Source of the DNA: Mesoaciditoga lauensis cd-1655R = DSM 25116
GTDB lineage: Bacteria > Thermotogota > Thermotogae > Mesoaciditogales > Mesoaciditogaceae
Assembly (NCBI RefSeq): GCF_000745455.1
Contig: NZ_JQJI01000002.1
Span: 1-64,000, forward strand
Length of the DNA stretch: 64,000 bases
Reading direction: 5' to 3'
This document shows positions 248 through 11,616 of the stretch, one piece after another. The notes beneath the pieces were generated by a model that was not told the DNA's origin, ran no database searches, and saw nothing but the letters and a program-made list of their open reading frames with translations. The translations under genes and the position numbers were made by a program. The first letter of the stretch is position 1. Every line of letters begins with the position of its first letter.

Positions 248-299
248 ATTTTATTTTGAGGCAACGAATGCTACTTCCTGTAGATTTTATTTTGAGGCA
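244..299. repeat. Subterminal/terminal direct repeats of the insertion sequence
   Basis: The 20-bp sequence gtagattttattttgaggca occurs exactly twice, at 244-263 and 280-299, 36 bp apart. Arrays of such direct repeats behind the transposase gene are a feature of IS1202-type elements. The second copy probably marks the element boundary near position 300 and encodes the last residues of the converging regulator gene. Confidence 0.7.
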
Positions 300-1665
300 T
301 CACGGATGGATTTCCACCTTTTTTAACCCTTCTGTCCAAACTGTATTTCGCAATGAGTTTGTTCAAATATCTGTACGATATCCCAAGCCTATCTGCCACC
401 TCATGCTTGTCCCAACTGAACATCTTTAAAATCTCTGTCAAATATATCATATCAAAGTGGCTTTCTACGCTTCTTTTCAAAGCCAAAAAATGTGGAATGG
501 TGCCATTCCCTATTATGTTCTTTACCATAACAAGGATGGAATCAACCACCGTTCCCTTTAATTCTGAAGATATACCATCTGTGTTTGAAAAAACAATTTT
601 AGATTTTGTATTCCCCATAGTCTGAGAAGAAATTTTGATTTTTCCTTCAGAAATATAACCTCTTAAAAGATTCTGCAATTCACGTATGTTTCCGGGATAA
701 TTGTAATTCAAAAGTATATCTTGATCTTCACTCGACATGTCTTCAAACCTCAAATTGTACCCATTTTGTTTGAAAATGAAATTCGTGATGTCTGGGATAT
801 CCTCTTTTCTTTGCCTCAAAGGCGGAATCCTCAACACGCGTTCTGAAAGCCTAAAAAAGAGATCTTTCCTGAGGTAGGTAACTTCTCTGTTGGTGGCTGA
901 AATAAATCTCACATCTACCTTTCTTATCGTGGAATCTCCCACCATGTTGTAAGTGCCTTCTTCAACCACGTGAAGCAATTTGGCTTGAATATGCAAAGGA
1001 AGTTCGGCAATTTCATCGAAGAAAATATGCCCACCATCCGCTTTGGCTATAAGCCCTTCTTTTGAAGAATCGGCGCTGGTGTACGCTCCCTTAGCGTGGC
1101 CAAAGAGTTCGCTTTCGAGCAGCGAAACGGGAATCGTAGCCGCATTCAACGCCACGAATTTCTTTCTTTTGTTCACCACATCATGTATTATATTCGCCAA
1201 GAGAGTTTTTCCCGTACCGGTTTCACCAAGGATGAGAACGTTGGGATCAAAAAAGGCAAAGCTGATAACTTCCCTTTTCAAGTTTCTTGTATGTGCGCTG
1301 TTCCCGGCAAATTGATTTAACGCTTCCCTTATCCTTTTTATAAGCTTCGCCACCTCTTTTTGAGGATCATTTTTTGCCGGGATATGCAGCGTGCCTTTCC
1401 TTTCCAAAAAAATTGGATACACCTCTTCACCAACCACTACCACGGCAACTCCGATGTTGCTTTGGAGATACTTCAAAATATTCTCTATCTCATTTTTTGG
1501 AATAGGGCTGTTTCTAGATGAATTTATGAAGAGATAATTACCTTGAAGTTCAGAAGATGGGATGCTTTCCAACGCGTATCGATCCTCTAAATTCACTATT
1601 TCGTAGGTGCGAAGCGCTTTTTTCACGTCGGCAAGATTCCTGAATCCAACGAAGTAGAATTTCAA
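271..1665 (-). CDS. Sigma-54-type enhancer-binding transcriptional activator (AAA+ with Fis-type HTH)
   Basis: About 464 residues from a TTG start at 1665, chosen because a ggggg ribosome-binding site sits 7 nt upstream; the frame is open to 1869 but that stretch is dispersed-repeat DNA. Order: N-terminal sensor-like region of about 155 residues without a recognisable receiver or GAF signature, then the AAA+ domain with Walker A GETGTGKT, the sigma-54 contact loop as GAYTSA (usual GAFTGA), Walker B GGHIFFDE, and arginine-finger region LFFRLSERVL; C-terminal helix-turn-helix KHEVADRLGISYRYLNKLI. Such proteins hydrolyse ATP to open promoters bound by RpoN. The last dozen codons (MPQNKIYRK end) derive from the insertion-sequence repeat, so the native C-terminus may be altered. 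It is the obvious candidate activator for the -24/-12 promoter at 2836. Confidence 0.85.
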   Translation of the reverse strand: MKFYFVGFRNLADVKKALRTYEIVNLEDRYALESIPSSELQGNYLFINSSRNSPIPKNEIENILKYLQSNIGVAVVVVGEEVYPIFLERKGTLHIPAKNDPQKEVAKLIKRIREALNQFAGNSAHTRNLKREVISFAFFDPNVLILGETGTGKTLLANIIHDVVNKRKKFVALNAATIPVSLLESELFGHAKGAYTSADSSKEGLIAKADGGHIFFDEIAELPLHIQAKLLHVVEEGTYNMVGDSTIRKVDVRFISATNREVTYLRKDLFFRLSERVLRIPPLRQRKEDIPDITNFIFKQNGYNLRFEDMSSEDQDILLNYNYPGNIRELQNLLRGYISEGKIKISSQTMGNTKSKIVFSNTDGISSELKGTVVDSILVMVKNIIGNGTIPHFLALKRSVESHFDMIYLTEILKMFSWDKHEVADRLGISYRYLNKLIAKYSLDRRVKKGGNPSVMPQNKIYRK

Positions 1666-1756
1666 TCTAACGCCCCCTTTTTCGGATTTATATTTTACCA
1701 CAGAATTAACGAAAAGATACAAATTAACTTTCAAAATTCTACTTTTACAGAAAAGT

Positions 1757-1914
1757 AAGTAAGATCTCATCTTGTGCATGAACATTACAAAAAATAGGTC
1801 TCTACGGGATTGTATGGGTAACATATTTCGAATAATAGCATCTTTTGACATTTTACTACCGCTTTCCAAGTGGTCAAGGCAATTTTTTCGAAGTCCTGCC
1901 AGAACATATGAGCT
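1757..1914 (-). repeat. Partial copy of the dispersed palindromic element (right-end segment plus half palindrome)
   Basis: Sequence from gtgcatgaacattac through aacatatttcgaataatagc to cgaagtcctgccagaacat is nearly identical to 61650-61826. It falls under the 5' extension of the activator reading frame and explains why that frame stays open although the extension is probably not protein coding. Confidence 0.75.
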
Positions 1915-1917
1915 CTC

Positions 1918-2290
1918 CTCGCCGTTTTATGGATATTCTGCCCCCACATGTGGATGAAGTGGTGGTAAAGCCATTTTTATAGAAGTCTTTCCCCGCGTAT
2001 GGACGAAGGGCCGACGAAACCATTTCTATAAAAAGTCTGCCCCCGCTTGCGGGGGAAGTGTCAGCAAAGCTGACAAAGGGGGGCAATGAACCCTCCTCTC
2101 CAACTTCGTTGGCCATCTCCTCCCGGTTTCGGGAGGAGAATAAAGGAAACTACTTTCCAAATTGAAAAGTTTGCCTCCATTTATGTAGGAAGTGCCGGTG
2201 AAGCCATTTTATATAAGAGTCTGCCCCCGCTTGCGGGGGAAGTGGCGGCAGAGCCGGCGAAGGGGGTTCTCCATATTGTAGGAAGAAGAG
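1918..2290. repeat. Cluster of degenerate GC-rich palindromic units of about 50 bp
   Basis: Successive units begin with tctgccccc or a variant (about 1937, 1983, 2036, 2167, 2220). The best units (2036-2085 and 2220-2268) carry a perfect hairpin cccccgc-TT-gcggggg followed by a second small hairpin and a closing ggggg. The same unit, with the same left flank (cgccattttatggatattc), occurs at 18608-18682. Similar GC-rich palindromes are widespread non-coding repeats in many bacteria. No gene is visible here. Confidence 0.75.
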
Positions 2291-2769: not shown

Positions 2770-2835
2770 TAAAACGGCAAAGCGAAAATTCTTTGTTCAT
2801 GGGGGTTTTCGAAATCATAAAAATTTGTGTCTTTT

Positions 2836-2851
2836 TGGCACGAATTTTGCT
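2836..2851 (+). promoter_or_regulatory. Sigma-54 (-24/-12) promoter
   Basis: TGGCACG-AATT-TTGCT matches the RpoN consensus at every conserved position, with the invariant GG (2837-2838) and GC (2849-2850) exactly 10 nt apart. The expected start of transcription is about 2861-2863, just upstream of the ggggg ribosome-binding site of the first gene. It lies 67 bp downstream of the last operator box. This arrangement would make expression strictly dependent on an ATP-driven activator. Confidence 0.85.
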
Positions 2852-2872: not shown

Positions 2873-3310
2873 GTGAGAGATGAAGATGAAAAATTCGAAG
2901 TTATTTGTGACAAAAAAGATGGGGAAATGAATCTTTCGGTCTTTGAAATAAAGAGAAAGAAAACATGGCTCGTGATGTATCGTTTCTTTCATCATTCGAA
3001 TGAAACCTTCTACTCATTGAAAAACGGGATAGGGTTTATAGGGGGAGAGGGGGTTTTATTCGAAGTGAATTTCAGCGTAACCGCGCCAACAACCGAAAAT
3101 GGCTCTTTCGTTGAGTCGAACGTCTACATCAACTTGGTGGATGATAAGGATGAGAAAAAGATAATAAAAATGGGGAACGTGACTCTGGGAAAGGTTGCCA
3201 TGATCGGTAAAGAATTTCAAGATTTTGAGAAACTTTTGATGTCAATCCAGCTTCCAGCAAATGCAAAAGAAGGTGAGTACAAAGGAATGATAACCATAAC
3301 GCTGGGTTGA
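2873..3310 (+). CDS. Beta-rich protein of the surface cluster, no signal peptide (possibly truncated)
   Basis: I do not recognise a named family. From the GTG at 2873 (ribosome-binding site ggggag 4-6 nt upstream) the product has 145 residues. An upstream TTG at 2825 is unlikely because it precedes the -12 element of the promoter and hence the transcript. The sequence alternates polar and hydrophobic residues as beta strands and ends in PANAKEGEYKGMITITLG, a last-strand pattern like that of the exported protein at 9874-10683 (IPKDTRAGIYREEIIITV) and the remnant at 11524. Unlike its neighbours it lacks an export signal, so it may be a decayed or re-started copy. It is the first gene behind the sigma-54 promoter. 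Confidence 0.6.
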   Translation: MRDEDEKFEVICDKKDGEMNLSVFEIKRKKTWLVMYRFFHHSNETFYSLKNGIGFIGGEGVLFEVNFSVTAPTTENGSFVESNVYINLVDDKDEKKIIKMGNVTLGKVAMIGKEFQDFEKLLMSIQLPANAKEGEYKGMITITLG

Positions 3311-3423
3311 AGAATAAAGGGGGTGAAATGGAAAGCCAAGTATTTGGGAATGATGAATGATTTACACAATCAAGTTTCTTCAAACCGGGCGAAAGCCTAA
3401 AAATCTTAAAGGGGGTATTTCTT

Positions 3424-4032
3424 ATGAAGAAAGTTCTGATTCTTATGGTAATTGCGATTTTGGCGTTAGGCGTGATGGCAATAGCAGATCATGTGGGTCC
3501 AACTTGTGATGAAGCAACGCTAACAGTTACATCTAATATTTACGTGCTTTCAGGTTTTGAAGCCACAGCAACAGGATACGAGGCAACGTTCTGTGGAGCT
3601 TCAGGAGATTTAGTAAGTGGCACTGTTTTGAAGGAATCAAGTTCTCAATGGAACCCTACTCCATGGCCAGAAGGCTTTACTCCTAGTTCTAATCCTAATC
3701 TTCCTTATCTTTATTATAAGCGCTATCTAATTCTCGCGGGTCTTGATTTAAAGAGCAACTATGAAAATATAACTGTGAGGGTTACTCACGAAGGATTTTT
3801 TGAGGATCATAGCCTTGGCAACAACATTGATGTGAAGGCTGCTGATGGTTGGTTTTCTAGTGATGGCACTACGTGGCATCTTTCAGCAGATCCAACAACA
3901 AACGGCAGCCCATATTCCGGCGCTCTATATGTATACTACGATGCTTCTGATGGCATAACTCAATGGATTGAAGCTAATAAGTATAGTGAAACGATAAAAT
4001 TTACTGTAACACCAATCAATCCAAATTGGTAA
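3424..4032 (+). CDS. Exported small beta-rich surface protein, paralogue 1
   Basis: The product has 202 residues: a classical signal peptide (MKKVLILMVIAILALGVMAIA, probable cleavage before DHV), then a conserved 40-residue start with VGPTCDEATLTVTSNI and a second cysteine in TFCGASG, a variable middle, and a conserved end (WIEANKYSETIKFTVTP) finishing in tryptophan. The two cysteines could form a disulphide. Two close paralogues (4108, 10851) share signal peptide, N-terminal block and the leader aagggggtatttc-TATG. The pattern resembles a structural subunit (pilin- or coat-like) rather than an enzyme. No database family is recognised; function is inferred from repetition and from the secretin and chaperone-like genes next to it. 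Confidence 0.75.
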   Translation: MKKVLILMVIAILALGVMAIADHVGPTCDEATLTVTSNIYVLSGFEATATGYEATFCGASGDLVSGTVLKESSSQWNPTPWPEGFTPSSNPNLPYLYYKRYLILAGLDLKSNYENITVRVTHEGFFEDHSLGNNIDVKAADGWFSSDGTTWHLSADPTTNGSPYSGALYVYYDASDGITQWIEANKYSETIKFTVTPINPNW

Positions 4033-4051
4033 AAAAAGGTAAAGTAAGAAA

Positions 4052-4087
4052 CTTAACAGCAGCGGCATAAGTGTCGCTGCTGTTAAG
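4052..4087 (+). promoter_or_regulatory. Perfect 13-bp stem hairpin between two subunit genes
   Basis: Arms cttaacagcagcg (4052-4064) and cgctgctgttaag (4075-4087) enclose a 10-nt loop. No T-run follows; instead the ribosome-binding site of the next gene starts 7 nt later. This fits an RNA-stabilising or processing hairpin, or an attenuator, rather than a standard terminator. Confidence 0.7.
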
Positions 4088-4107
4088 GGAAGAAGGGGGT
4101 ATTTCGT

Positions 4108-4743
4108 ATGAAAAAAGTTCTGATTCTTACAGCAATTGCGATTTTGGCGTTAGGTGTGATGGCAATAGCAGCTCATGTGGGCCCAACTTGTGATGAAGCA
4201 ACATTGACAGTTACGTCTAATATAACAGTTGTTCAAGGATTTGAGGCTACTGCAACTGCGCAGGATGCCACTTTTTGCGGGGCGACCGGGAATCCATTGA
4301 GTGAGGTAACAGATTTTCAAACTTCTTTCTGGCACTATAATGGTAGAGATTATTCTGCAACAACATCAGTTTCTTTAAGCGGAGTTAAGTTCCTTGAGCT
4401 TGATGTAAGATCAAATGCAGCTACGATTGTTGTTAAAATCACTGCCAGTAATTTTAAACTTGGTGAAACTTCTCTGTCTTTGGCGCAATTAATTGCTTCC
4501 GGAAATTTGGGTAGTGTAGGTTTTAGCACTTATAACAATTATGGATGGGGTGAAGTTATTGCTCCTTCAGCTTATAATAATAGCATGAGTTATACTATCA
4601 TACTATTCCTTGGGAAAACTTCTCCTAACCCTTATTACAACGGCGCTCTTTATATGTATATCACAAATATGCCAGCATGGTTAGAAGCTGGAAAGTACTC
4701 TTTTGATACCTCATTCACCTTAATGCCTAGGACTAACTACTGA
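4108..4743 (+). CDS. Exported small beta-rich surface protein, paralogue 2
   Basis: The product has 211 residues, with signal peptide MKKVLILTAIAILALGVMAIA, then AHVGPTCDEATLTVTSNI, a second cysteine in TFCGATG, a divergent middle, and the shared end WLEAGKYSFDTSFTLMP finishing in tyrosine. Identity with the gene at 3424 is highest over the first 65 residues and the leader, which points to tandem duplication with fast divergence of the exposed middle part. A 13-bp hairpin separates the two genes. Role as a structural subunit is inference. Confidence 0.75.
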   Translation: MKKVLILTAIAILALGVMAIAAHVGPTCDEATLTVTSNITVVQGFEATATAQDATFCGATGNPLSEVTDFQTSFWHYNGRDYSATTSVSLSGVKFLELDVRSNAATIVVKITASNFKLGETSLSLAQLIASGNLGSVGFSTYNNYGWGEVIAPSAYNNSMSYTIILFLGKTSPNPYYNGALYMYITNMPAWLEAGKYSFDTSFTLMPRTNY

Positions 4744-4997
4744 CAAAAAAGTGGAAATAACAAGACTTAAGCAAACCGAATCTATTTAATTAGAAAAAGA
4801 AGAAAATGCAAAGCGATACGGTGGCACCTCGTGATGCCCACCGGTAGGATAAGAAACGTATAGGATTATGTAGAAGATAACGTTTTTGAAGTGCCACCGC
4901 TTTTCAAAGCACAGGCGAGGAAGTTCAAAGCAAGGATTATTCACAAAGAGTTTTTTGAGGAAGGACAACGGGTAAGTTGAGAGGGAAAAATGATGAG
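4744..4997. other. Non-coding gap in the surface cluster
   Basis: About 250 bp without a convincing gene. It contains a 9-bp inverted pair cggtggcac (4819-4827) and gtgccaccg (4891-4899) separated by 63 bp. The tggcac here is not followed by a GC at the right distance, so it is not a -24/-12 promoter. Confidence 0.5.
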
Positions 4998-5651
4998 ATG
5001 AAGAAAGATGGCATTGGAAAGAAAGAGTTGATTTTAAGTGAGGTTATTTTATCTATTCTATTTTACTCGGTGCTTTTTGCAAGCAGCATATCGACAAGTG
5101 GCGTATGCTGCTCAAAATCATCTTTATCGGTAACGTCTAACATATTCGTTCTTCCATATTGCGAAACGACAACAGTTTCTTACACAACGCCTTTGCTTCC
5201 TTCAAAAAGAAACCTTATAAATGAAGCTTTACAAGTAAAAAAAGATTTTTTGGTAAGACTCGCAACGTTAGAAGCAAAATTGAATTTCAACCAAGCGCTT
5301 ATTTACGTAAATGTCAATCGAACAAATATATTAAGATTTATGGAAAGCAAAGATTTTAGTGGCAATGAGAAAGTATATCGTACTCCTTATTACGGTTCAG
5401 ACGTTTATTTCGTAGTTTCGACTCGTATTCTTAAAGCCCCTGAGGGCTATTATTTCCTTAAAGTAGATGTAAAAATGTTGAATTCACTTGTTAAACAATG
5501 GACAAAGAGCTTTACCTATGCCGTTCCCATAGAGTTTACACTTTTGACAGAAGAGAATGGAAATACGTATAATTTATTGAACGACGGAATTAAAGAGATA
5601 GACAATCAGGAATTTTGGAAAATACATAACCGTCAAGGAGGGATAAGGTGA
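4998..5651 (+). CDS. Exported protein distantly related to the surface-subunit paralogues
   Basis: The ATG at 4998 gives MKKDGIGKKELILSEVILSI..., a lysine-rich start and one hydrophobic segment, probably a signal peptide ending near FASSISTS; a TTG at 4977 in the same frame is possible. The mature start, CCSKSSLSVTSNIFVL followed by a further cysteine, aligns with the LTVTSNIYVL block of the paralogues at 3424, 4108 and 10851, so it is a diverged member of the family with an extra C-terminal part. Its stop overlaps the next gene start by 4 bp, so both are translated together. Confidence 0.7.
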   Translation: MKKDGIGKKELILSEVILSILFYSVLFASSISTSGVCCSKSSLSVTSNIFVLPYCETTTVSYTTPLLPSKRNLINEALQVKKDFLVRLATLEAKLNFNQALIYVNVNRTNILRFMESKDFSGNEKVYRTPYYGSDVYFVVSTRILKAPEGYYFLKVDVKMLNSLVKQWTKSFTYAVPIEFTLLTEENGNTYNLLNDGIKEIDNQEFWKIHNRQGGIR

Positions 5652-7204
5652 ATTTCAAAAAGTATTTTATTTTATTCTCGTTCTTTTTAGTCATTATGGT
5701 AGCTGGTGTCTTTGCAGTAGGAGGCCTCTATATAACACCATTGGTGGAAAATCTTCATGGAGCCCCGGGGAGTGAAATCACTTTTAAAACTTCAATTACA
5801 AATCAAGCAAACGTTCAACTCAAGGCTCCCATATCTTTCAAAGACTTTTACATAGACTCTAACGGTAATTACAGCATGACCACATTTGCCTCTTATACAC
5901 ATTCATGCGCGGCGTGGATAACGGCACCATCAACAGCCCCAATTATAAGTGCAGGGCAAAGCATTGAAATGCCTTTTACAGTCCATATCCCTTCTAATGC
6001 TGCTGGAGAATATTTTGCAGCCATTTTAATAAACAACACACCACCACATCAAACTGGAAAAATAATAGTTGGGGTCAACACGGCGATATTGGTGAAAGTT
6101 ACGATTGACAATGTGCCACCAACTCATCGAGCGGTGTTTAAAGATGCTAAAATTTACAACACCATGAATGATAAGCTTCCTCCTGATTTTCCTTCTTCCA
6201 TGAAGAATGTTCCATACGTGCTGAAAATAACCTATAAGAACATTGGTAATGCGGTTGTGGGGCTGGATGGTCAATTAAGAATCATTTCTGATACGCTTCA
6301 TAAGATCGTGATGATGCAAAACGTGGAGAGAGAAAAGACGCTTGCTTTTCCAGATATAACAAGAACCGTTTGGATACCAATAGATAGAATTATGCCAAAC
6401 GGAAATTACAGGGTGTTGATTTCCGCGGATCTTGGAAACCATACAATGGTGAGCAAAAGCTTTAAGGTAAAGCTTAGCGGTCAAAAAGCAAGTAAATTCC
6501 CACTGTTGAAATTCGATAAAAATGTGCTAGTAGCGAAATTCGAAAGGCCAAAATCCTTCCTAAATATGGTATTAAATGTTGAAAGCCTTGATTATAGAAA
6601 ATCTAAAATAAAATCCACCATAGTGGGTATGAAAGAGCTGAAAGATGGCTCTATCGTTGAAGCCACTCTCGATAAAGAAGTATTCGGTAATTTTAAAGTT
6701 TATCCAAATCCTGTTGTCGTTTATCCTTATTCTTCACGAAGAATGGTTATAGCGGGAAAAGGCCCTGCGGTAAAGCCGGTAGATGGAGATCATTACGCCT
6801 TGTTGAAGATGGAAGAATCGGTGATAGGAGAAAAATCTACAAGCGTTCGAATTCCAATAATTTTGGAAGTAGGCAAACTGACAAAATCAATCGCACTCAA
6901 AGATTTTAGAATCACACCTAACGGAACAGAAACAAATGTATCGTTGGATATCGAAAATACGGGTAATTCACTGACTTATTACGCGGGGCAAGTCTTCGTA
7001 ACCAACGAAAAAGATGTAACGGTACTTAAGAATCCACAAATAATAAGCAGAGGCGTACTTTACGCGAATACAACTGTCTCAAGGAGTTTGACATTGCCTG
7101 TGAAAGTTGAAAAGGGTTACAGTGTTAGAGTGGTAATGTACTACTTCACCGATGAGAATTTTAAAAATATAGCGTCGGTTTCCGTTCAACAAAAAATAAA
7201 ATAA
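5648..7204 (+). CDS. Exported multidomain Ig-like (chaperone-like) protein
   Basis: The product has 518 residues from a GTG that overlaps the preceding stop (GTGA). The signal peptide probably ends at GVFA. The first 125 mature residues (LYITPLVENLHGAPGSEITF ... GQSIEMPFTVHIPSNAAGEYF) have the pattern of an extended Ig-like domain as in PapD-type pilus chaperones and DUF916/WxL-interacting proteins; a second such domain follows (KITYKNIGNAVVGLDGQL) and a third near residue 420 (ITPNGTETNVSLDIENTGNS). No transmembrane anchor is visible at the C-terminus. A chaperone or assembly role for the neighbouring subunits is inference; it could equally be a structural component. Confidence 0.7.
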   Translation: MNFKKYFILFSFFLVIMVAGVFAVGGLYITPLVENLHGAPGSEITFKTSITNQANVQLKAPISFKDFYIDSNGNYSMTTFASYTHSCAAWITAPSTAPIISAGQSIEMPFTVHIPSNAAGEYFAAILINNTPPHQTGKIIVGVNTAILVKVTIDNVPPTHRAVFKDAKIYNTMNDKLPPDFPSSMKNVPYVLKITYKNIGNAVVGLDGQLRIISDTLHKIVMMQNVEREKTLAFPDITRTVWIPIDRIMPNGNYRVLISADLGNHTMVSKSFKVKLSGQKASKFPLLKFDKNVLVAKFERPKSFLNMVLNVESLDYRKSKIKSTIVGMKELKDGSIVEATLDKEVFGNFKVYPNPVVVYPYSSRRMVIAGKGPAVKPVDGDHYALLKMEESVIGEKSTSVRIPIILEVGKLTKSIALKDFRITPNGTETNVSLDIENTGNSLTYYAGQVFVTNEKDVTVLKNPQIISRGVLYANTTVSRSLTLPVKVEKGYSVRVVMYYFTDENFKNIASVSVQQKIK

Positions 7205-7222
7205 ACAATGTGGGGGGATTTC

Positions 7223-8377
7223 ATGAAAAAATATTTAATTTTCTCTTTGAGTATCTTGGTTTTAGTAGGAATAGTTTTTTCAGAAAATGTAAGCATATCC
7301 TTTTTCCAAGAGCCATTAGTTCAAGCGCTCAACGATCTTGCCACGCAAGAGAACATAACGATACTTACAGACTCAACGATAGGGGGATTCATCACTTTGG
7401 ACCTTGAAGACGTTCCGCTTTCAGAGGTGTTAAACCTCATGCTGCTTCCAGGAGGATATTCTTGGAAGGAAATAAAACCCGGCGTCTATTTTGTTGGCAG
7501 TGCCAATCCATCTTCTAACAGCTTTTTTCAATTAGCATCTATGAGCTCCTACCATTTGCAATATGTGAAATCCTCAACACTTTTGGATTTGCTGCCAGCA
7601 GTTATGAAGCCTTACGTTTTCACATCGACTGATTCTCCTTACCTTGTCCTTGTCGGTGCACCTGAAGATGTGAAAGAGAACATCTTGTCCACGATAAAAA
7701 AGATAGATGTCCCAAAGAAAGAAGCCCTCTTTCAAGTAAACGTTGTTGAGGTGGACGAGTCTTATTTGAGAAAGCTGGGTATGGATCTTCAATGGTCAAA
7801 CTCTTCAAGCGCGACTAAAAACACGTTGAATGTATTAAAAATGGCCATAAATCTGGTTTATAACGGAAATGGAATGTCTATTTTATCCAACATTCGCTCT
7901 CAGGCATCTAATGGTCAAGCGAAGATATTGGCATCGCCCAAGATAAGGATCGTGAGTGGGAATAATGGTAAAGTAGATGTTTCCACAACTAGAAACTATT
8001 CTTACACTGATTCCAGTGGTAAGCTTGTCGTTTCAAGTGTTAAAGTTGGCGTGAGCATTTCCTTAACTCCAACCATATCTTCATCCGGTGATGTGTCTGT
8101 AAACATGTCAGAAACGGTGAGCGGCGCATTGGAAAATTCTGGTACAGTACCGGATACGATGTCAAACACACTTTCAACAGTTTTTGACACTCAAGTTGGA
8201 AAGACGGTGGCGGTAGGGGGAGTTGATTTTTCCACTTATGAAAAATCGATATCCAAAGTTCCTCTCTTGGGAGACATCCCAATAATAGGATATTTCTTCA
8301 GCCAAGAGAAAATGAAGAAAGTAAAAAAAGAGATCATCGTTTTCATCACCTGTGAAAGTGTGGGTGACAAGCGATGA
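7223..8377 (+). CDS. Short complete secretin (GspD/PilQ family)
   Basis: The ATG at 7223 has a gggggg ribosome-binding site 6 nt upstream, giving 384 residues. Signal peptide to about residue 20; then an STN/N0 domain (ISFFQEPLVQALNDLA ... VPLSEVLNLML), an N1-like domain (SYHLQYVKSSTLLDLLP ... IDVPKKEALFQVNVVEV), and a C-terminal secretin domain with the signature VPLLGDIPIIGYFF and end KKEIIVFIT. Secretins form ring-shaped outer-membrane pores for type II/III secretion, type IV pili and phage export. It is shorter than most because it has only two N domains. No lipobox cysteine and no pilotin gene are visible. The stop overlaps the next start (ATGA). Confidence 0.88.
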   Translation: MKKYLIFSLSILVLVGIVFSENVSISFFQEPLVQALNDLATQENITILTDSTIGGFITLDLEDVPLSEVLNLMLLPGGYSWKEIKPGVYFVGSANPSSNSFFQLASMSSYHLQYVKSSTLLDLLPAVMKPYVFTSTDSPYLVLVGAPEDVKENILSTIKKIDVPKKEALFQVNVVEVDESYLRKLGMDLQWSNSSSATKNTLNVLKMAINLVYNGNGMSILSNIRSQASNGQAKILASPKIRIVSGNNGKVDVSTTRNYSYTDSSGKLVVSSVKVGVSISLTPTISSSGDVSVNMSETVSGALENSGTVPDTMSNTLSTVFDTQVGKTVAVGGVDFSTYEKSISKVPLLGDIPIIGYFFSQEKMKKVKKEIIVFITCESVGDKR

Positions 8378-9843
8378 AGAAGACGTTTCTTATTGTTCCC
8401 CTACTTTTTATGGCGGTTTCAGCATTAGCGCTAACCGCTTCCTTTTCATTCTATCAAGAGGACTTGTCTCAAGCCTTTTCGGATATATCCATGCAGTTCA
8501 ACGTACCGATAGTCGTTGACCAAGGTGTGATTGGGAAAGTCACGGCCAATTTAAACGACGTAACCCTAAAAGAAGCGATGGATCTTTTGTGCAAGAAAGC
8601 CGGACTGTTTTACTTTGAAAGAAATGGAGTTTATTTTGTGGGAAGTTCATCGTCTTCTGCAAAGATGAAGATGTATGGATATGAAACACAAGTTATACCG
8701 TTGAAATATCTAAATGCCCAAGGAGCGGTTTCCTTTTTAACCAATTATTCTCAATACATATCATATTCCGCGAACGAACCTTTATTGCTCTTCAATGGAC
8801 CAAAAGAAATTTACGACGAAGTCTTAAAAACGCTTCAAAAATTGGATGTAAAAATGTCTCAAATGTACGTTACCTATACCATATACAAGGTATCCAACGA
8901 TACGTGGCAAAACGGGGGACAAAATTTTGGTATTTTGAGCCAGCTCCACAACTCCAACGGTTTTAACAGTGTGGACTTTGATGAATTTTTCAGAGAATCC
9001 AAACACTTTGAATTGAAATCCAGTGGCTTTGCGATGGTGAACGTTGGCAAGATAGCCGATTTTAAAGTGGAAGACATGAACACGGAGATAAAGATTCAGG
9101 TGACCTCTTCAAACCCTAATCAGACTGACCTAACCGTTGAGGCGTCAAATACGTTGAACTCCTATCTAAGCGTGAAGTCGGCGTTTAGCCTTTCGAAGGG
9201 AAAAGTGGGAGTTGCACAAATGAGAAATGGAGAAAATAGGTTCCTCGTGGAAGTGAACGTGGTAAAACCCTCTGAATATATCTCAAAAATGGCAAATATG
9301 TGGCCCGAAGAGGAAAAGAAGAAAGAAACATACCTTTCTATAAGAGGGTGTCTTAATTATGTGGCATTTGACGCATTTGGAAGATACAAAAACATGGCAG
9401 TTGGCGTGGTGAAAAAAGCGCCATCCTATCCAGTGGTCGTTTATGGAGGGATAAGCGAAGAATTGGCAGAGAACCTTTACGGTTACGCTTTTTTGGGAGT
9501 AACCGTTCCAGCAACATTTGATTCGTTAAACTCATATAGATTGAAACTGCTGCTTGTGCAAGTGGCAGATGGTTCAACCGCTGTCATGCCTTCTGGATAT
9601 GCAAGTGTAGAGATGCCGTTGAATGATTTGTCTGATTTCAGTATAGATTACGTTGGAAATTTGGAATACAAGATCGATAGCCTATTTGTAGGTGGAAGCG
9701 TTCACTACACTTACGATAAAAGTGGGCAATCGTTTACACCTTTGCTGAGTGTAGGATTGTTTTTTAACAAGAACCTAAAAGGAAGACTTTTGTATTCTCC
9801 TTTTGAAAAGACGTTTAGGGGAGAGATAAATTTTGAAATGTGA
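8374..9843 (+). CDS. Secretin-like protein with STN/N domains but no secretin pore domain
   Basis: The product has 489 residues with a signal peptide ending near ALALT. Its first 165 residues parallel those of the preceding secretin: FSFYQEDLSQAFSDIS, GKVTANLNDVTLKEAMDLL, NGVYFVGSS, then VIPLKYLNAQGAVSFLTNY and LLLFNGPKEIYDEVLKTLQ. After that the proteins diverge; the signature VPLLGDIPIIG is absent and the last 150 residues look like amphipathic beta strands (NLEYKIDSLFVGGSVHYTY, NLKGRLLYSPFEKTFRGEI), as in outer-membrane barrels. It may cap or extend the secretin ring in the periplasm, or act as a partner porin. Starts within the previous stop. Confidence 0.75.
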   Translation: MKKTFLIVPLLFMAVSALALTASFSFYQEDLSQAFSDISMQFNVPIVVDQGVIGKVTANLNDVTLKEAMDLLCKKAGLFYFERNGVYFVGSSSSSAKMKMYGYETQVIPLKYLNAQGAVSFLTNYSQYISYSANEPLLLFNGPKEIYDEVLKTLQKLDVKMSQMYVTYTIYKVSNDTWQNGGQNFGILSQLHNSNGFNSVDFDEFFRESKHFELKSSGFAMVNVGKIADFKVEDMNTEIKIQVTSSNPNQTDLTVEASNTLNSYLSVKSAFSLSKGKVGVAQMRNGENRFLVEVNVVKPSEYISKMANMWPEEEKKKETYLSIRGCLNYVAFDAFGRYKNMAVGVVKKAPSYPVVVYGGISEELAENLYGYAFLGVTVPATFDSLNSYRLKLLLVQVADGSTAVMPSGYASVEMPLNDLSDFSIDYVGNLEYKIDSLFVGGSVHYTYDKSGQSFTPLLSVGLFFNKNLKGRLLYSPFEKTFRGEINFEM

Positions 9844-9873
9844 TTTCCGGAGAGAATTAAGTGAGGTAAGAAT

Positions 9874-10683
9874 ATGAAAAGGGTGTTTGTTCTTACGATT
9901 TTAATTCTGGTGGCATTTTCACTTTCAGCAGTCTTTGCGGATGGATGGGTAGACGCTGAAAGTGAGATACAAAAAAGCGTTCAAGAGAATTCAACCAAAT
10001 CTTCGACCGTTGAATTTATAGATTTGGCTGCATCTATCCTGAACGGGCAAAATGTTGTGAATAAAGATGGGATTAATACTCAAGTCAATGGTGAAGGAGA
10101 AAATGGAAACGATCCTTACGCAATGGTAGTAGTTTGGAGCGCACAAGAGGTTAAAAAAATTCTTGAAAGTGGTAACAACTCTGATATATCAAGTCTGTTA
10201 AGCAACATCGAGGAGTTGTTAAAGGGGGATTTTACAGGATATTTTGGCAACACCGACGATAAGCTTTCTCTCTATCCTACTACAACGTTAAACATGGGAA
10301 CTTATATGCTTGCGAAATCAGGTTCCTTTGAATTTCCATTGTCTTTTCTCTTTGTTAGCACGAATGCAACGATTACAATTAGCGTCAAAAAGAATAATGG
10401 AGAAATTCCGTTGCAATTTGCTTTCGTGTCGTTGAAAAGTAATCTAACAACTATTCAACAAAACATGACTTCATCAAACGTTTATAGTATCCTTTTCAAC
10501 ACAAAACCTTTGGTGAATAATTTTGCTGCGGCTATTTCAACCACCATGGAAAATCCCTCAAGAGAAAACAAAACAGCGGTGAAGAGCTTGTGGATGAAAA
10601 TTAATATCCCAAAAGATACGCGTGCAGGTATCTACAGAGAGGAGATAATAATAACGGTCTCTGCGCACATTGAAGGTTGGTAG
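9874..10683 (+). CDS. Exported beta-rich protein of the surface cluster
   Basis: The product has 269 residues with a clear signal peptide (ILVAFSLSAVFA) and a gaggt ribosome-binding site. After a helical, polar first third (residues 30-120), the last 150 residues are predicted beta-rich (ATITISVKKNNGEIPLQFAF) and end IPKDTRAGIYREEIIITVSAHIEGW, resembling the ends of the proteins at 2873 and of the 11524 remnant. No cysteines are present. No family is recognised; a subunit, tip or anchor of the surface structure is possible. Confidence 0.65.
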   Translation: MKRVFVLTILILVAFSLSAVFADGWVDAESEIQKSVQENSTKSSTVEFIDLAASILNGQNVVNKDGINTQVNGEGENGNDPYAMVVVWSAQEVKKILESGNNSDISSLLSNIEELLKGDFTGYFGNTDDKLSLYPTTTLNMGTYMLAKSGSFEFPLSFLFVSTNATITISVKKNNGEIPLQFAFVSLKSNLTTIQQNMTSSNVYSILFNTKPLVNNFAAAISTTMENPSRENKTAVKSLWMKINIPKDTRAGIYREEIIITVSAHIEGW

Positions 10684-10850
10684 AAAATAAAAAATAACAA
10701 TGCAAAAGAATGTGTGAAAAGCCATCTTTGCTACTTATAAAAATTAGAAAAAATATTCTACTACTAATGCAGGGGTAAATAAAATGATTCGGTAGGGGAA
10801 CGAAGTTGGTAACACCGGTAACGCATTTTTAAGAAAAGGGGGTATTTCGT

Positions 10851-11507
10851 ATGAAGAAAGTTCTGATTCTTACGGTAATTGCGATTTTGGCATTGGGAGT
10901 TATAGCAATAGCGGACAGCGTAGGTCCAACTTGTGAAGAGGCAACACTGACAGTTACATCTAATATTTACGTGCTTCAGGGTTTTGAGGCTACCGCAACG
11001 GGATACGATGCAACGTTCTGTGGAGCAACAGGATATCTTTTAAAGGGACATGAAGCAGTTGATGCAGCACATGGTTCAAGTTTTCCTCAGATAGTATTGT
11101 ATGACGGAGGACCTTATGGACCAGGTAGTGGAATTGGAGACGACGATCTCGTGCTGTCTTCTCTATCGGTCATGTCGAATTACAATAAAGTTAAAATAAC
11201 TATTGATATAAGCGGTGTTCCAAGTGATTTTAGAAACATTCTCAAGATAGCCGTGTCGACCAATGATGATAATGACTGGAGTAATCCATCATATGTTGGT
11301 AATTCGTCGTCGGGAATCCTTACGTTACACGACACTAATGGTGGAAGTCCTTACAAAGGTTTCTTGTTCATTTACACAGTTTATACAGGCACGCCCAAGA
11401 TTTTCAATGGAACAAATCAAGGTTCTAACCAAATAGCACCATGGGTGGAAGCAGGAAAATATTCCATAACGTTTAAATTCACCATTTCACCTGACTTTAC
11501 ATTCTAA
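10851..11507 (+). CDS. Exported small beta-rich surface protein, paralogue 3
   Basis: The product has 218 residues. The leader aaaagggggtatttcg-TATG and signal peptide MKKVLILTVIAILALGVIAIA are almost identical to those of the genes at 3424 and 4108, followed by SVGPTCEEATLTVTSNI, TFCGATG and, after a variable middle, WVEAGKYSITFKFTISP ending in phenylalanine. It stands 170 bp behind the previous gene and 6 kb from its sisters, so it may be transcribed separately. An aromatic last residue is common to all three paralogues. Confidence 0.75.
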   Translation: MKKVLILTVIAILALGVIAIADSVGPTCEEATLTVTSNIYVLQGFEATATGYDATFCGATGYLLKGHEAVDAAHGSSFPQIVLYDGGPYGPGSGIGDDDLVLSSLSVMSNYNKVKITIDISGVPSDFRNILKIAVSTNDDNDWSNPSYVGNSSSGILTLHDTNGGSPYKGFLFIYTVYTGTPKIFNGTNQGSNQIAPWVEAGKYSITFKFTISPDFTF

Positions 11508-11523
11508 AAATTCAGAGATTAAA

Positions 11524-11616
11524 ATGAGGATTCAACACCCATTTTTCAGAGCCCCTGCAGGCGTTTACAAAGACAGTGTTAAGATAACGGTTTGTGCGGA
11601 TGTGAAAGATTGGTAA
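11524..11616 (+). pseudogene. C-terminal remnant of a surface-cluster beta protein
   Basis: A 30-codon frame ends in APAGVYKDSVKITVCADVKDW, which matches the final strands of the protein at 9874-10683 (AGIYREEIIITVSAHIEGW). The short ATG lead (MRIQHPFFR) has no ribosome-binding site of note. The rest of the gene is gone, probably by recombination when paralogue 3 was inserted or rearranged. Confidence 0.65.

Follow-up and report, generated by a model that had tools for sequence, protein, structure and literature searches.

What is an outer-membrane secretin for when the genes around it encode no motor? The question is raised by a gene cluster of Mesoaciditoga lauensis cd-1655R = DSM 25116 (Mesoaciditogaceae, Thermotogota; genome of 2.17 Mb in 65 contigs), which we studied within a 64-kb window, the whole stretch of contig NZ_JQJI01000002.1 that was analysed. 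According to open reading frame (ORF) calls and Pfam and NCBIfam scans, positions 3424-11507 encode a short secretin, a partner that joins secretin-type N0/N1 domains to a predicted barrel, and a large immunoglobulin (Ig)-like exported protein, together with five small beta-rich ones; by the same means, no gene for an ATPase, platform protein, prepilin, prepilin peptidase or usher was found in this cluster. An earlier reading of the same DNA (the original prediction) had proposed an undescribed secretin-based system with at least five exported beta-rich proteins and without ATPase, platform, pseudopilin, prepilin peptidase or usher. The five proteins are those at 3424, 4108, 4977, 9874 and 10851, and the absences hold both in the cluster and, as genes conserved beside it, across 22 related loci.

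On the evidence of the sequence, we give an even chance to a chaperone-like and secretin-based pathway, with no motor of its own, that would carry beta-rich proteins, after their export by Sec, to the outer surface. The association of the genes is not due to chance, as the order of beta-rich exported proteins, Ig-like protein (hereafter WxLIP-like, for its resemblance to WxL-interacting proteins), secretin and barrel protein is the same in 22 loci from eight families, where the core genes are separated by short gaps, or most commonly overlap by 4 nt. This conserved order supports the original prediction. Only three groups recur in at least five families when the genes of these loci are clustered (the small exported proteins, the Ig protein and the secretin/N0-barrel group), and no ATPase, platform, peptidase or type III secretion export apparatus gene is conserved beside them. 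Our distribution counts cover 103 Thermotogota genomes and, beyond the phylum, DUF916 matches on plasmids. An Ig profile finds the WxLIP-like gene in 62 of the 103. Of the 54 short secretins listed, 49 have an Ig gene no more than 6 kb away: 47 follow it directly and share its strand, and two are inverted. Most of the remaining five come from fragmented assemblies or sit close to a contig end. In a narrower secretin scan all named relatives were Thermotogota, the closest being Mesoaciditoga metagenome-assembled genomes, with Athalassotoga saccharophila included.

The cluster extends past 3424-11507, from a divergent activator, a sigma-54 promoter and the gene at 2873-3310 on one side to a gene remnant ending at 11616 on the other. 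Its features are as follows (signal peptides were assigned by eye and hydropathy only; AF2, AlphaFold2).

271-1869, minus strand: divergent sigma-54-dependent activator, probable regulator, with an AAA+ domain (PF00158, E=4e-49) and a C-terminal HTH_8-like region
2835-2851, plus strand: sigma-54 (-24/-12) promoter, TTGGCACGAATTTTGCT, agreeing at 13 of 13 consensus positions
2873-3310, plus strand: first gene 3' of the promoter, with GTG start, no signal peptide and a beta-rich C-terminus
3408-3616, plus strand: 209-nt repeat spanning ribosome-binding site, signal peptide and N-terminus, with copies at 4092-4300 (78%) and 10835-11043 (85%)
3424-4032, plus strand: exported beta-rich paralogue 1, putative surface subunit, with signal-peptide-like N-terminus and 48% identity to the 10851 paralogue
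4108-4743, plus strand: exported beta-rich paralogue 2, 56% identical to paralogue 1 over the first 125 aa
4977-5651 (probable start ATG 4998), plus strand: exported beta-rich protein, a divergent relative matching the paralogues weakly
5648-7204, plus strand: large exported Ig-like protein with WxLIP-like N-terminal domain (PF06030 match at family level), putative periplasmic chaperone or anchor
7223-8377, plus strand: short secretin of 384 aa, N0, N1 and secretin domain only (PF00263, E=2e-28)
8374-9843, plus strand: N0/N1 domains (profile match) fused to a C-terminal outer-membrane beta-barrel predicted from an AF2 model
9328-9837, plus strand: segment encoding the predicted 12-strand barrel (residues 319-488), from DSSP strands of that model
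9874-10683, plus strand: exported protein with signal-peptide-like N-terminus and beta-rich C-terminal domain; orthologues lie 3' of the barrel gene in loci L066, L069 and L070
10851-11507, plus strand: exported beta-rich paralogue 3, signal-peptide-like, with a beta-rich low-confidence AF2 model
11545-11616, plus strand: remnant of a further subunit gene, FRAPAGVYKDSVKITVCADVKDW followed by a stop, with the same ending in the L066 homologue of the 9874 gene

The remnant 3' of paralogue 3 suggests that genes have been lost, or cassettes turned over, at the edge of the cluster. Orthologues of the 4977 gene occupy the same position in loci L072 and L073. Although the product of 2873-3310 lacks a signal peptide, it ends in a stretch similar to the C-terminal motif of the subunits described below, and it is 43-97% identical to its counterparts in relatives.

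The secretin bears a signal-peptide-like leader, as originally claimed, and its PF00263 domain is near-complete (residues 233-382 of 389 in the frame from 7208, with ATG 7223 the likelier start), with weak Pfam matches to STN and Secretin_N. Its best NCBIfam match is TIGR02515, PilQ (E=7e-34, 117 bits against a cut-off of 284), and the short secretins of its family are mostly frames of 362-434 aa. The "secretin-like partner" of the original prediction needed more revision. Its STN/N0 and N1 domains are genuine, with matches to the STN, Secretin_N and PilQ N-terminal models and, in a profile search, to PilQ and GspD N-domains in the PDB at 1e-9, so that secretin N-domains are present in both predicted outer-membrane proteins; however, Pfam and NCBIfam returned neither a canonical secretin domain nor a plug domain, and its C-terminus is a predicted barrel. 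An AF2 model built from 13 sequences has a mean predicted local distance difference test score (pLDDT) of 81 and twelve strands over residues 319-488, where the score is about 90; Foldseek searches with it returned secretin N0/N1 domains. Among its homologues 15 of 19 end in an aromatic residue, against 0 of 19 secretins and a background of 18%, although the window copy ends in Met, and hydrophobic residues alternate at the C-terminus (4.5 of 5 odd positions versus 1.7 of 5 even). With its signal peptide, strands, C-terminal aromatic and alternating hydrophobics, this third core protein is predicted to be an outer-membrane beta-barrel, and it adjoins the true secretin in every locus whose contig reaches far enough.

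The large Ig protein had been described as PapD- or DUF916-like, and only the second half of that description survives. When scanned singly, neither this protein (518 aa) nor any of the five small ones gave a curated Pfam match, and the window protein falls below the Pfam threshold for DUF916. Across its family, WxLIP_PGBD (DUF916, PF06030) is matched by 17 of 20 members at E<=0.1, the best at 1e-8 and several above the curated cut-off, and a family profile searched against the PDB found the solved EfmWxLIP1 at E=5.7e-11. By these profile matches the protein is a distant homologue of the WxL-interacting protein. The pili-chaperone (PapD) family was not among the 25 best Pfam matches listed for the 20 members, where WxLIP_PGBD appeared instead. 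Gram-positive WxLIPs are 337-365 aa long and have a C-terminal transmembrane helix, whereas the Thermotogota proteins are about 470-560 aa and have none (the highest 19-residue hydropathy past residue 45 was 1.76 in the 20 members). Weak DUF916 matches also occur on plasmids outside the phylum. In the two Deinococcus plasmid neighbourhoods that we opened (L119:7938-9314 and L120:7474-8801), DUF916-like proteins stand beside small hypothetical and large proteins, without an annotated secretin; these are possibly another diderm WxLIP-type cluster.

The leaders of the exported proteins are ordinary and signal-peptide-like, and no prepilin-type gene was seen among the cluster's translations. The three paralogues have in common 209 nt at 78-85% identity, beyond which identity in ungapped columns drops to about 50-70%. 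Judged from the alignment, a conserved leader with a diverged remainder is the pattern of surface proteins under diversification, or of partial gene conversion. A late motif, AGxY...T..P, is common to the small proteins across families, frequently with an aromatic end, and the C-terminal strand of the pilin CfaE gives a weak profile match to their C-terminus (5e-4). Pfam scans of the small proteins returned nothing meaningful, including no match to the WxL family, and none of 29 carries a paired W-x-L motif. At L062:7229-8618, a locus presumed to be that of T. maritima, two of the small proteins have a near-identical tail after the last strand, NQKPWID.EGNY..DLE.YV, which is possibly a sorting signal.

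On the pathway that we favour, the small beta-rich proteins would cross the inner membrane by Sec, as their leaders suggest, and would be received in the periplasm by the WxLIP-type protein, placed at the peptidoglycan by homology. In AlphaFold predictions, a hairpin of WxLIP supplies the strand by which the WxL sandwich is completed (PMC10599100), and the Thermotogota protein may likewise complete the beta-sandwich of a subunit with a strand. The ring of the short secretin would then let the subunits pass the outer membrane; the N0/N1-barrel protein, probably docked on it by matching N-domains, would either gate the ring or hold subunits at the surface. Because no inner-membrane ATPase is encoded, folding and strand exchange would have to drive export, as in chaperone-usher assembly.

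Several points weigh against this proposal. To our knowledge, no secretin exports without an inner-membrane engine, and type IV pilus genes are present in trans in the source genome. The AF2 model of paralogue 3 is beta-rich at a pLDDT of 59, and Foldseek found no hit below 0.001 with it, so that strand complementation of the small proteins is a guess. The Foldseek barrel matches of the partner, to strands of OmpC/OmpF porins, are local and of low TM-score, and N0/STN matches are lacking from the third protein of several other families, which keeps the barrel-like ending. The original claim of a system stands as regards the conserved order and the lack of a literature description, while export or assembly is what we infer.

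The alternative that survives best, though we regard it as unlikely, is an envelope connector without any export, in which the WxLIP-like protein links secretin ring and barrel, as fixed outer-membrane anchors, to the peptidoglycan, and the small proteins are components of the periplasm or of the toga lattice. The lack of a motor gene would then be expected, the PGBD of WxLIP has been proposed to bind peptidoglycan (PMC10599100), and the detached toga of Thermotogota is known to be tethered by OmpA/OmpB (PMC3387000). A secretin is a channel fold, however, and costly as a mere anchor; the small proteins diverge fast, like surface-exposed ones, and with about 40% of genomes lacking the WxLIP-like gene, that gene cannot be essential for a toga.

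More doubtful is a part in the type IV pilus machine, whereby the short secretin would stand in for PilQ in DNA uptake or in a special type of pilus and be driven by PilB and PilC in trans. PilQ is the secretin's nearest NCBIfam model, and the genome does hold type IV pilus genes, with PilB on contig C11, PilT on C9 and a PilC...PilQ operon on C7; that operon, however, comprises a PilC-like T2SSF protein, small genes without Pfam match at the M-N-O-P positions and a 1101-aa PilQ of its own. T. maritima, our named control, carries the cluster, with a WxLIP-like match and two secretins (frames of 1287 and 404 aa), and another carrier genome is presumably T. neapolitana. The published pilQ genes are TM0088 and TM1117 in T. 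maritima, which fits its two secretins, and CTN_1450 and CTN_1933 in T. neapolitana (PMC5637354), so that TM1117 and the CTN genes speak for a pilus outlet by name. Against it, the cluster has ordinary signal peptides and no prepilin-like gene, and the long secretins persist without it: 96 of the 103 genomes have a secretin, including about 35 of the 41 without a WxLIP-like match, nearly all of the long type, from which it follows that the pilus does not need the cluster. (PilN was uninformative as a pilus marker across the phylum.) A cognate pilus locus found with the cluster in every genome, which was to have refuted the original prediction, does not clearly apply: type IV pilus genes do co-occur, but with their own PilQ, and without the cluster in about a third of genomes. 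A plain type IV pilus secretin as the sole reading was rejected on account of that PilQ.

Very unlikely, in our judgement, is a diderm WxL adhesion cluster, an adhesive platform of WxLIP-like and WxL-like proteins that secretin and barrel only place at the outer membrane; the WxLIP domain is common to both and one WxLIP is clustered with small exported beta-rich proteins (PMC10599100), but the paired motif, the WxL family match and the C-terminal transmembrane helix are all missing. Least credible is uptake, with the N0/STN-barrel protein importing a substrate bound by small surface polymer-binding proteins, since STN domains, although also found in TonB-dependent receptors (Pfam STN description), here precede a predicted 12-strand barrel without plug match that adjoins a true secretin wherever the contig extends.

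The source genome holds a second complete cluster, on contig C30 (L004), with a divergent sigma-54 activator, three small exported proteins, Ig protein, secretin and N0-barrel protein, 25-35% identical to those of the window cluster. In a secretin tree, which cannot place PilQ because of its very long branch, window-type and C30-type sequences form clades with 100/100 support each, the former including one sequence from family f4; both types have therefore been kept for a long time. Second-type clusters of relatives (L046:5849-7234, L047:5800-7191, L051:5283-6671) have a lipoprotein-like gene with beta-propeller-type repeats amid the small exported proteins, which is absent from the C30 cluster.

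In Mesoaciditogaceae the adjacent activator and the promoter suggest that sigma-54 would switch the cluster on. The site at 2835 is the only full-consensus -24/-12 match in the window, none arose in 10 shuffles, and the genome has a sigma-54 gene. A start of the first ORF at 2825 is excluded by the promoter at 2835-2851, and GTG 2873 is supported both by where the promoter lies and by an alignment to L067, L069 and L070. Sites scoring 11-13 of 13 precede cluster genes in most Mesoaciditogaceae loci scanned, but not at the C30 cluster of the source genome itself. Activator homologues occur at that second cluster (L004:3843-5168) and in Mesoaciditogaceae relatives. In other families several loci instead have a BTAD-type regulator gene nearby, which recurs in four families. 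Sigma-54 gave no match in the T. maritima control, so its control is not part of the core. In Athalassotoga and a relative, two adjacent sigma-54 activator genes lie beside the window-type cluster (L072:4097-6745, L073:2634-5191). Between activator and cluster, a 48-nt G+C-rich palindromic repeat (CCCCCGCTTGCGGGGG...) occurs in four imperfect copies at window positions 1930-2266.

In a survey of diderms, Thermotogae were the only clade without a recognised protein secretion system, and one of their own, suited to the toga, was suggested (PMC4793230). For such a system the cluster offers a concrete candidate that occurs across the phylum and has named genes in species that can be cultured (TM1117, CTN_1450, CTN_1933). 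We found no description of it as a system in the open literature searched and no named system that matches it, the secretin alone being named, as PilQ (PMC5637354). All its parts belong to known families; motor-free export, if demonstrated, would be a new class. Tentatively, and rating it below the pathway itself, we suggest such a class, in which a minimal secretin and a periplasmic chaperone of WxLIP type would build fibres or coats of beta-sandwich proteins on the surface of diderm cells, as a dedicated Thermotogota route. A diderm pathway would thereby be connected with the WxL surface clusters of Gram-positive bacteria, and the joining of WxLIP, a Gram-positive surface module, to an outer-membrane channel bears on how wall-anchored surface systems change between monoderms and diderms.

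How, then, does the cluster compare with known systems? It fails the tested defining features of type II secretion, type IV pilus, chaperone-usher and WxL systems. Like PilQ, HofQ and GspD, of which PilQ is the nearest named subfamily, its secretin has N0, N1 and secretin domains, but it is short, and its operon is without ATPase, platform, alignment and pseudopilin genes, so that of the type II or type IV machinery the secretin domain is present unaccompanied by motor, peptidase or (pseudo)pilins. The pIV protein of filamentous phages is likewise short for a secretin, at about 400 aa, and serves outside a complete type II or type IV system; it works with the pI/pXI ATPase to export virions, and our cluster, by contrast, holds no phage genes. 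With Thermotoga OmpA1/OmpB it shares the outer envelope of the same phylum and a barrel with C-terminal aromatic, yet TM0476/TM0477 are unrelated genes and none of the six porin candidates reported for the toga (PMC3387000) belongs to the cluster. Chaperone-usher pili offer a predicted periplasmic Ig-fold partner, beta-rich subunits, an outer-membrane pore and no ATPase at the locus, as here, but the pore in our cluster is a secretin and the Ig protein is of DUF916 type; a chaperone-usher system was rejected, given that no usher (PF00577) scores above cut-off in the 103 genomes and no PapD-family chaperone was matched. A WxL cluster proper was rejected for want of WxL motifs and of a transmembrane helix on the WxLIP-like protein. 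Gram-positive WxL/WxLIP clusters nevertheless have the homologous DUF916 (PGBD) domain beside small exported beta-rich proteins, and to this arrangement the Thermotogota cluster adds two predicted outer-membrane proteins.

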